Shown piece by piece: positions 7,338 through 9,289 of a stretch of 12,518 nt of DNA. Origin of the DNA: an uncultured Mucispirillum sp. GTDB taxonomy: Bacteria; Chrysiogenota; Deferribacteres; Deferribacterales; Mucispirillaceae. The stretch's first letter is position 1. Each line of letters begins with the position of its first letter. The position numbers were made by a program, and so were the translations under genes. Below the pieces are notes generated by a model. The model was given only the letters and a program-made list of their open reading frames with translations, made no database searches and was not told the DNA's origin. The stretch is taken from contig CAMEZN010000013.1 in NCBI GenBank assembly GCA_945947845.1, positions 1-12,518 of the forward strand, written 5' to 3'.

Positions 7338-7372
7338 AATTAATCAGTCTGATTAATCCAGACTGATTAATT
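7338..7372. repeat. 14-bp inverted repeat between efp and the lipoprotein operon (possible terminator or operator)
   Basis: AATTAATCAGTCTG (7338-7351) and its perfect complement (7359-7372) flank the 7-nt loop ATTAATC. The loop itself creates a second, nested palindrome with the left arm (ATTAATCAG-T-CTGATTAAT), so the element holds overlapping symmetric sites. It lies 34 nt past the stop of the last gene of the - strand operon and about 50 nt upstream of the efp -35. On the - strand it is followed by TATATTTTAT rather than a clean T run, so it may be a weak terminator; its nested symmetry would also suit a dimeric regulator site. Confidence 0.5.
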
Positions 7373-7405: not shown

Positions 7406-8470
7406 TTATAATTCATTACATTGTCCAGTAATAAATGAATCAGAAACATATTTGCACATATTTTTTAGCAGTGGCTTATATATTTCCATTAATTGTTTAT
7501 ATGCTTTATTATCAAAAATAAATACATAATCACCATTAAATTCAGCGCGGATAGGTATAGTGTTAACAAAATATTTAAATGTATTAATCTGTTGTTTCAA
7601 CTCATTTTTATAAGCCGTATCAATTTGTTCTAGTAAAAAAATACTATAATATAGATATTCTAAATATATTTCATAATATATACTGCTGTTCGGGTTTTTG
7701 TTAATAATGAAGTTATTATAATAATGAAAAAGTTGTTCAGCAACAGTATCTGTATTAAGATATACCATATCATTAATGCTGTAAAATATTTCATCTAAAT
7801 AATTATCGCTTAATAATCCTTTATTTATAAAGTTTTCTTTACTATTAACTTTATTTATTATTTTTATATACTGCGGATTATCTGGTTTTATTATTGATGC
7901 TTCCTTTTTTTGGGCTTCTATTTTTGCTTGTTTTTCAGCTTCTTCTTTTTCTTTTTCGGCTTTCTGTTTTTCTTTATTTCTTTTATCTATAATGCTTTGA
8001 GGTGCTTGCCAAGTAGTATATCCCTTATGAAAAGCATCATTCATAATCATATCAGTAACATAATCTACAATTTCATTCCATTCATTTATATTTTTATCAT
8101 TGTTTAATTTAAAATATGCTTGGTTATTTTGTATGATAACAGGAAGTTGATTTATGTGATATGTAAATCCATAAATTTCATTATCATAAATATACTGGAA
8201 TGACTTGTTTAATTTTTGTAACGACATTATTAATAAAGAAACATTATTAACAGAAACAAGTCCAGAGTTTGTTTTACTTGATTTAAACGATTTTTTTACA
8301 ATATCAAATATTTTATCTTCATTACTATTAATATGCTTGTTTGCATTTTGCAAAGCATTATTTACATATTTATTCCAAGTATTAGAATTTGGTAAATATA
8401 CTTGAGAGTATGCATTATATGGTAAATATAATAAAAATAATAAGAAAATATTTAAAAGATATTTTGTCAT
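7406..8470 (-). CDS. Secreted protein of unknown function with central charged coiled coil
   Basis: I do not recognise a family. 354 aa. The N-terminus MTKYLLNIFLLFLLYLPYNA is a signal peptide with likely cleavage near AYS (20-22), so the protein should be exported. Residues about 160-191 are a lysine/glutamate/alanine stretch (KEKQKAEKEKEEAEKQAKIE region) forming a highly charged helix or coiled-coil linker between two globular halves. The first half (23-158) is Asn/Lys-rich with a WNEIVDYVTDMIMNDAFHKG helix; the second (195-354) is rich in Tyr, Ile and Asn. Two cysteines near the C-terminus (339, 351) could form a disulfide. The start shares bases with the stop of the upstream lipoprotein gene (TAATG) and has only a weak ribosome site, implying coupled translation. 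Last gene of a three-gene operon of envelope proteins. Confidence 0.8.
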   Translation of the reverse strand: MTKYLLNIFLLFLLYLPYNAYSQVYLPNSNTWNKYVNNALQNANKHINSNEDKIFDIVKKSFKSSKTNSGLVSVNNVSLLIMSLQKLNKSFQYIYDNEIYGFTYHINQLPVIIQNNQAYFKLNNDKNINEWNEIVDYVTDMIMNDAFHKGYTTWQAPQSIIDKRNKEKQKAEKEKEEAEKQAKIEAQKKEASIIKPDNPQYIKIINKVNSKENFINKGLLSDNYLDEIFYSINDMVYLNTDTVAEQLFHYYNNFIINKNPNSSIYYEIYLEYLYYSIFLLEQIDTAYKNELKQQINTFKYFVNTIPIRAEFNGDYVFIFDNKAYKQLMEIYKPLLKNMCKYVSDSFITGQCNEL

Positions 8471-8823
8471 TATCTTAATCCATAAACTTCAACATAAAAC
8501 TGTCCTTTTTCTGCTTTTTCTACAGTATATGTAATTGGATATTGCTGTTGATTGTTTTCATATTTTATATTTAAGTTAGCTTTGCAAGAGTGTGAACCTG
8601 TATCTTTGTTTGTTTCTGCAGTTCTAATTGTATCAATATCTAATTTTAATTTTTTAGTATCAACTTGTTTTCCTAAGACATTTAATTGTCTTTGCAGCTC
8701 ACTTGATGATAAATCAATGACTGTTTTTATAACTTCACTGTTATCACAACCTGGTGCCATTTTATTGCAGCCAGATATTATTATAATAGTAGTTAATAAT
8801 GATAGTATAAGTATTTTTTTCAT
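8470..8823 (-). CDS. Small putative lipoprotein
   Basis: 117 aa. The N-terminus has Lys2-Lys3, a hydrophobic core and the lipobox ISGC with Cys19, so signal peptidase II processing and a lipid anchor are predicted. The mature part is about 99 aa and includes Cys26 and Cys80, which could pair in a disulfide; the C-terminal half (residues 78-115, CKANLNIKYEN then a beta-strand pattern ending GQFYVEVYGL) looks like a small beta-rich domain. It has the feel of small lipoproteins found in many Gram-negative genomes with a YTV...FYVEVYGL ending, but I cannot name a family. AAAGGAG precedes the start by 9 nt. The upstream membrane-protein gene ends 18 nt before, and the downstream secreted-protein gene overlaps its stop. 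Confidence 0.82.
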   Translation of the reverse strand: MKKILILSLLTTIIIISGCNKMAPGCDNSEVIKTVIDLSSSELQRQLNVLGKQVDTKKLKLDIDTIRTAETNKDTGSHSCKANLNIKYENNQQQYPITYTVEKAEKGQFYVEVYGLR

Positions 8824-8841: not shown

Positions 8842-9237
8842 TTAGTTTTCAAATGCACTTTCAGGTAATGACCAGTTTTGCTTTGCCATATTAATTTTAT
8901 AATCTTCTTTATCAATTATTTTATATCCAAGTTTAATATAATTTAATGCAGTCATTTTATTTCCCTTAATTCCTAAGAATATATTAAGCCCAAACATGCC
9001 AAATTGAACTATATACATTAAAAATTCCAGTGCGGAATAATAGTAAAATTCTGTAAATACTGTAAGAGTAATATTAATAGCTTCTAGTATAAGCATAATT
9101 ACCCCCAATAAATATAATTTTCTAAGAAATAATGGTATACCAAAAAAAGATGAAAATAAGAATAGTATCCAGCTGAAACCTGCTTTTACTGTTGCAGTTT
9201 CACCTGTTATACTGTTTTTGAATGTTATTTTATTCAT
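8842..9237 (-). CDS. Small multi-pass membrane protein, DUF2628-like
   Basis: 131 aa, first gene of the operon. The N-terminus KITFKNSITGETATVKAGFS is soluble and short, then GFSWILFLFSSFFGIPLFLR (20-39) forms a membrane hairpin, followed by helices at about 41-61 and 70-92. LGIKGNKMTALNYIKLGYKI after the last helix resembles the pattern (valine-Gly-Phe-Ser-Trp entry, then an N/K...LxxGYK exit) of DUF2628 and related small inner-membrane proteins; this is recognition by eye and not certain. Function unknown. The start has GGAGGT (9243-9248) 5 nt upstream; an ATG at 9242 is followed at once by a stop and can be dismissed. Its promoter contains a C9 tract, so expression of this and the two following genes may switch on and off. 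Confidence 0.8.
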   Translation of the reverse strand: MNKITFKNSITGETATVKAGFSWILFLFSSFFGIPLFLRKLYLLGVIMLILEAINITLTVFTEFYYYSALEFLMYIVQFGMFGLNIFLGIKGNKMTALNYIKLGYKIIDKEDYKINMAKQNWSLPESAFEN

Positions 9238-9262: not shown

Positions 9263-9289
9263 ATTATATCATGGGGGGGGGATTGTCAA
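9263..9289 (-). promoter_or_regulatory. Putative phase-variable promoter with C9 tract in the -35/-10 spacer
   Basis: On the - strand a perfect -35 TTGACA (9284-9289) and a perfect -10 TATAAT (9263-9268) are separated by 15 bp: AT, nine C, ATGA. The C9 run (G9 on the + strand, 9273-9281) is out of character for such AT-rich DNA. Spacing of 15 bp is too short for good sigma-70 activity; gain of one or two C would give 16 or the optimal 17 bp. Start of transcription would be near 9256, with GGAGGT of the first gene close behind. Slippage in such tracts is known to tune spacer length in Neisseria promoters; its occurrence here is inferred. Confidence 0.8.

Follow-up and report, generated by a model that had tools for sequence, protein, structure and literature searches.

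Homopolymeric tracts in promoter spacers

Slipped-strand changes of promoter spacing have been described in Neisseria for porA, fetA and opc (PMC2791445, PMC5320596). The surface expression of PorA, compared to that obtained with 11 G, is approximately 2-fold lower with 10 G and 13-fold lower with 9 G (PMC3639595), and a high-expression construct of fetA has a 17-bp spacer (PMC4577077). In Bordetella pertussis, a C-tract in the promoter region of fim2 and fim3 sets high or low expression (PMC2562373). The phase-variable tracts described for Campylobacter have a length of 9 in 53% and of 10 in 26% of the cases (PMC6321876).

The promoter described here lies in a window of 12,518 nucleotides, the whole stretch of DNA that was analysed, from an uncultured Mucispirillum. 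It resembles the promoters of porA, fetA and opc in its spacer tract of C or G, in a surface-protein target and in the proposed change of the distance between −35 and −10 (PMC2791445, PMC5320596, PMC3639595), and it resembles those of fim2 and fim3 in carrying a promoter-region C-tract (PMC2562373). As in this group of promoters, the homopolymer is located between the −35 and −10 elements and a surface-related gene follows downstream. Unlike in Neisseria, however, the Mucispirillum arrangement is a stereotyped module that combines consensus hexamers and, in most cases, an extended −10. The number of loci differs as well: three transcriptionally phase-variable genes are given for the gonococcus NCCP11945 (PMC5320596), compared to 10 promoter-class tracts in the genome of the window alone, and few fimbrial genes are concerned in Bordetella pertussis, compared to 30 gene clusters in Mucispirillum that encode, as judged by eye, mostly lipoproteins. 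Moreover, switching has been demonstrated in Neisseria, whereas in Mucispirillum we infer it from sequence.

The mechanism is already known, while the lineage, the number of loci and the stereotyped module were not found in the open-access literature among the matches listed. Papers with both Mucispirillum and phase variation were, among the matches listed, off topic by title. A word search of the main text of the M. schaedleri genome paper (PMC5285517) returned no word starting with phase, homopolymer, promoter or variable, and a word search of a 2025 review on phase variation (PMC11868660) returned neither Mucispirillum nor Deferribact.

Architecture of the promoter and its operon

Direct reading of the sequence from 9289 to 9263 on the reverse strand gives TTGACA-AT-CCCCCCCCC-ATGA-TATAAT, i.e. 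a C9 tract within a 15-bp spacer (Table 1). The exact hexamers, the tract and the spacing are therefore as stated in the preliminary description of this DNA, which overlooked that ATGA-TATAAT forms an extended −10 element (TGnTATAAT) and that the same arrangement is repeated across the genome and the genus.

Table 1. Features of the poly-C promoter and of the three-gene operon behind it
Feature	Position	Strand	Basis
−35 hexamer TTGACA, exact consensus	9289-9284	−	sequence; hexamer-pair search of genome
AT, −35 to tract	9283-9282	−	sequence
C9 tract within promoter spacer	9281-9273	−	sequence, shuffle test, genome-wide run count
ATGA, tract to −10; TG at 9271-9270, giving extended −10	9272-9269	−	sequence; TGn in 39/39 (2,4)-split promoters
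−10 hexamer TATAAT, exact consensus	9268-9263	−	sequence; hexamer-pair search
Ribosome-binding site GGAGG, gene 1	9248-9244	−	sequence
ATG start codon, gene 1	9237-9235	−	sequence
Gene 1: 131-aa membrane protein, function unknown	8842..9237	−	ORF; localisation by eye
Gene 2: 117-aa lipoprotein, lipobox ...IISGC	8470..8823	−	ORF; lipobox by eye
Gene 3: 354-aa protein, signal-peptide-like start	7406..8470	−	ORF; signal by eye
Terminator-like hairpin, operon end before efp	7338..7372	−	hairpin scan

Two terminator-like sites, one per strand, are found at 7338-7372, where 0.3 are expected. Between 7250 and 9620, other promoter-like sites, counted with spacers of 16-18 only, are not above shuffles (31 compared to 25.7 expected, sd 5.0). 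Family searches with the three operon proteins returned nothing over the cut-off. A protein database search with gene 1 identified 29 homologues, of which one is assigned to Candidatus Mucispirillum faecigallinarum and one comes from a Desulfovibrio MAG. A search for this family regardless of tracts found the tract promoter in 5/5 close homologues within the genus, the window's own copy included; the loci of the homologue in G014, a genome of a neighbouring genus, and of nine weaker matches contain no C/G run of at least 6.

The glyS gene adjoining the promoter has 81-94% identity to five other Mucispirillum contigs (L085-L089). L085, L086 and L088, in which 324, 338 and 250 bp precede glyS, respectively, carry no tract in that region. 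In L087 and L089, pstS, efp and glyS are present and nothing matches genes 1, 2 or 3. The operon, which separates efp from glyS in the window, was thus not found at this place in these two other Mucispirillum, and in L087 a 400-aa ORF occupies the gap instead.

Rarity and recurrence of the tract

The C9 tract is the only C/G run of at least 7 in the window, and its three overlapping 7-mer matches compare to 0.10 expected; none of 200 dinucleotide shuffles of the window reached three such matches. The 19 largest contigs, which add up to 265 kb of this genome and comprise the window, contain 331, 48, 5, 0, 0 and 3 C/G runs with lengths of 4, 5, 6, 7, 8 and 9, respectively, which places length 9 far above the trend. 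Counted by exact length, the window's genome contains no C7, two C8, 18 C9 and two runs of C10 or longer (22 runs of at least 8). The same preference is seen in the ten genomes of the genus (C7 15, C8 26, C9 227, C10 or longer 53), where C9 makes up 227 of the 321 runs of at least 7, and the four genomes of the related genus g2 contain 7, 4, 6 and 4 runs of these lengths. Since the C9 peak matches that of phase-variable tracts elsewhere, it is no sign of invariance. The pair of hexamers alone is not above the control, with 19 exact TTGACA-N14..20-TATAAT sites in the window's genome compared to 18 for the reversed hexamer-pair pattern; it is the tract-bearing sites, 7 of the 19 with a C-tract of 8-10, that stand out.

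The pattern TTGACAN{1,5}C7 (TTGACA, 1-5 nt and C7 or more) is present in 9/10 genomes of the genus and in all seven that are at least 90% complete. In the family, 10/15 genomes contain it, with 155 overlapping matches compared to 5 for the reversed pattern, and in the phylum 11/50, the extra genome being G045 with one match. Genus g2 lacks TTGACA-C-tract promoters in all four genomes despite a few long C-runs. The matches correspond to 76 distinct tracts, of which 10 belong to the genome of the window, taken from the window and its own genome's contigs, and 66 to relatives, read in 63 DNA stretches.

An artefact of assembly or sequencing, or else a chance C-run, could be suspected because the window's genome is fragmented (336 contigs, 75% complete). 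The probability of this is virtually negligible. The layout recurs across the genus, including the single-contig 2.35-Mb genome G002, which refutes an artefact, and the shuffle and reversed controls are near zero; a chance origin of the tract is rejected on the shuffles, the recurrence, the reversed control and the run-length trend.

Some related forms were seen outside this pattern. G014 contains 60 exact C9 runs, only 5 of which are preceded by TTGACA, and 10 of the 20 tracts examined there were classed as coding. At L038 (2806-2814), a G9 tract directly precedes a TATGAT −10 with TTGACA 19 bp upstream, and, as judged by eye, L185 (5999-6007) and L193 (2512-2520) show the same G9 form on the other strand relative to the C-tract match. 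In IMG/VR, 34 contigs contain the pattern (raw count); these diverse phages carry the C-tract in promoter-like sites without resemblance to the Mucispirillum module. Similar promoter-like sites with a C7 spacer tract occur in the phage groups L253/L261/L264, L250/L252/L260 and L255/L257/L266.

A fixed non-tract spacer of 6 nt

The pattern search set only the −35 hexamer and the tract, leaving the position of the −10 free. A near-consensus −10 occurs somewhere within 40 nt in 72/76 tracts, and in 54/76 its non-tract distance is exactly 6, compared to 3 cases at 5 and 7 at 7. With the first −10 found, the nucleotides on the two sides of the tract are split as (2,4) in 39 cases, (3,3) in 10, (4,2) in 3 and (1,5) in 1. 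The total of 6 is often kept with tracts of 7, 8, 10 and 11 (1, 4, 3 and 1 cases). The spacer therefore equals the tract plus 6, i.e. 15 bp for C9, 16 for C10 and 17 for C11. All 39 promoters of the (2,4) class, the commonest split, have the TGn of an extended −10, as do 41/50 Mucispirillum cases with a non-tract total of 6.

It could be argued that C9 marks a regulon of envelope proteins as a fixed operator or sigma-factor signature, with the promoter working at 15 bp through its extended −10, the tract length under selection and no switch involved. In line with this, 61/79 promoter tracts are C9, most homologous tracts are equal in length (see below), TGn is invariable in the commonest split, the targets share one class, and it is always C and never G that directly follows TTGACA (0/15 family genomes with G). 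Such a signature is nevertheless rather unlikely. An operator would have a fixed distance to the −35, and what is fixed instead is the total, since the tract itself shifts in position (left flank of 1 to 4 nt) with the non-tract sum still 6. Furthermore, coding tracts without a promoter role are equally rich in C9 (G002 has 33 exact C9, only 5 of them in promoters), and near-identical promoters exist with C9 compared to C7 and with C8 compared to C9.

These last cases come from a comparison of 29 homologous tract pairs, with one genome per species, some pairs sharing a member and 3 lying within one genome; the window's promoter has no orthologue among them. The tract lengths are equal in 22 pairs and differ in 7. 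Two differences, between L186 and L198, resemble substitution at the tract edge, and the other 5 are slippage-like: C9 in L189 and C7 in L209, where the upstream 120 nt are identical and the downstream sequence is 96.7% identical; C8 in both L190 and L208 and C9 in L217; C9 in L182 and C10 in L194; and C11 in L176 and C10 in L215.

Favoured promoter spacing

Genome by genome, 15 bp prevails among the spacers whose non-tract total is 5-7. The widest spread is found in the single-contig G002 (14, 14, 14, 15, 15, 15, 16, 16 and 17), and one relative has exact hexamers at 17 bp (L176, C11). The spacing favoured in the genus was surveyed in 582 tract-free upstream regions from the contigs fetched for the loci of ten genomes, with a permuted −35 as control. 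Allowing at most one mismatch per hexamer, the counts peak at 17 bp, with 33 sites compared to 13.1 in the control. The noise of this survey is large, as the values at 14, 15, 16 and 20 bp (22, 21, 18 and 22) also exceed their controls (13.9, 13.5, 14.5 and 12.7). When the −35 had to be exact, an excess was seen at each of 14, 15, 16 and 17 bp (5, 4, 3 and 6 compared to 0.5-0.7). As in Neisseria, 17 bp is probably the best spacing in this genus. A 15-bp promoter is not necessarily silent, however, as its conserved extended −10 may support some activity and render the spacer less critical. The initial proposal of a weak 15-bp and a strong 17-bp form thus finds only moderate support: the 17-bp peak speaks for it, while the exact −35 excess at 14-17 bp and the extended −10 speak against it.

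The conserved TGn and the excess of all spacers from 14 to 17 bp where tract-free regions contain an exact −35 would also fit a tract that does slip under a dominant extended −10 and is a by-product of mutation that hardly affects regulation. That is very improbable, however, as neutrality would predict neither the precise placement between TTGACA and TGn in front of 30 gene clusters nor the retention of a non-tract total of 6.

Genes behind the promoter tracts

The 76 downstream ORFs of at least 60 aa fall into 30 clusters, with L037 and L188 left apart though they are evident homologues. A lipobox pattern is found in 45/77 downstream ORFs compared to 7/185 background ORFs; the corresponding p of 2e-22 is an overstatement, because homologues are counted repeatedly. 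By eye, about 18 of the 30 cluster representatives are lipoproteins. Pfam searches with ten representatives identified RCC1 repeats (L165), MORN repeats (L036) and, below the cut-off, a weak outer-membrane barrel (L197), with weak or no matches for the remaining ones. A UvrB-like ORF behind L175 and an Obg-like ORF behind L227, both named by eye, are probably not targets.

Tracts inside genes

By rule, the 22 tracts of the window's genome (G000) are divided into 10 promoter, 7 coding and 5 other tracts, one of the latter (L044) following TTGACA with a poorer −10. In G002, 45/54 tracts were examined (33/33 C9, 5/5 C7, 2/6 C8 and 5/10 longer), which comprise 10 promoter, 17 coding and 18 other tracts. 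Of the coding tracts, 16/17 in G002 and 7/7 in G000 have G on the coding strand, and 14/17 and 7/7, respectively, are in frame as assembled. Pfam searches with ten coding-tract genes identified two family-9 and two family-2 glycosyltransferases, an MBOAT acyltransferase, a sulfatase-fold protein, a DNA methylase, a molybdopterin oxidoreductase and an Ig-like lipoprotein, and left one without a match.

The peak of runs at 9 and the in-gene G on the coding strand are shared with the poly-G phasome of Campylobacter (PMC6321876), and, as in that phasome, long tracts are in excess and occur in envelope-modifying and DNA-methylase genes. The distribution differs in that 77% of the poly-G/C tracts reported for Campylobacter lie in ORFs (PMC6321876), compared to 10/22 in promoter spacers in the window's genome.

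The methylase gene (L046, 4886-6442 on contig C107 of the window's genome) encodes an N6_N4_Mtase DNA methylase with an in-frame G9 on the coding strand, and is a candidate phase-variable methylase. In six further ORFs, L318, L294, L299 and L301 in G002 and L325 and L333 in G014, a G9 tract is located ~44-47 codons past the start with ~660 codons after it. As assembled, the reading frame is kept across G9 in L318, L325 and L333 and broken in L294, L299 and L301. According to Pfam, L318 is a Tat-signal molybdopterin oxidoreductase.

Proposed mechanism and implications

The poly-C promoter is best explained by slipped-strand control of its spacing, with a probability of roughly 0.8. The preliminary description had proposed a slippage-prone spacer tract with an envelope operon downstream, and this is now supported by the architecture and its recurrence in 9/10 genomes, the fixed 6-nt non-tract spacer, the bias of the 30 gene clusters, the C9-peaked length spectrum and some length differences between homologues. 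Slippage within the population, its effect on transcription and the identity of the ON length are what we infer from these.

According to this model, a slippage-prone C-tract would separate the −35 from the extended −10 of a sigma-70-type promoter. Gains and losses of C during replication would shift the −35/−10 distance (tract + 6 bp) and leave both recognition elements untouched, resulting in a heritable and reversible reset of the transcription of the three-gene envelope operon. At the usual C9, the 15-bp promoter would probably be weak or basal; C10 would give 16 bp, and C11, with 17 bp, would probably be strongest. The extended −10 may allow for basal activity and a graded response. The window promoter would then be one of a genus-wide set, mostly in front of surface lipoproteins, beside G-tracts in envelope-modifying genes. 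As the spacer is probably 2 bp too short at the usual C9, default-low switches would be likely.

In its widest form, the model describes a genus-wide default-low module in front of ~30 gene clusters, mostly lipoproteins, in which C9, as the equilibrium length, keeps the spacer 2 bp below the optimum and cells express small, changing subsets of their surface lipoproteins, with basal activity from the extended −10 and with coding G-tracts (glycosyltransferases, DNA methylase) as further layers; the odds of this extended version being correct are about even.

Single cells of Mucispirillum probably vary the expression of surface-protein genes at random through gain and loss of C. If true, this would constitute a large surface contingency-gene system for a genus of mucus-dwelling gut commensals, and a single genome or bulk RNA sample of Mucispirillum would mask the cell-to-cell diversity of the surface. 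The dozens of natural copies of the module open the joint tuning of slippage equilibrium and promoter spacing to study.
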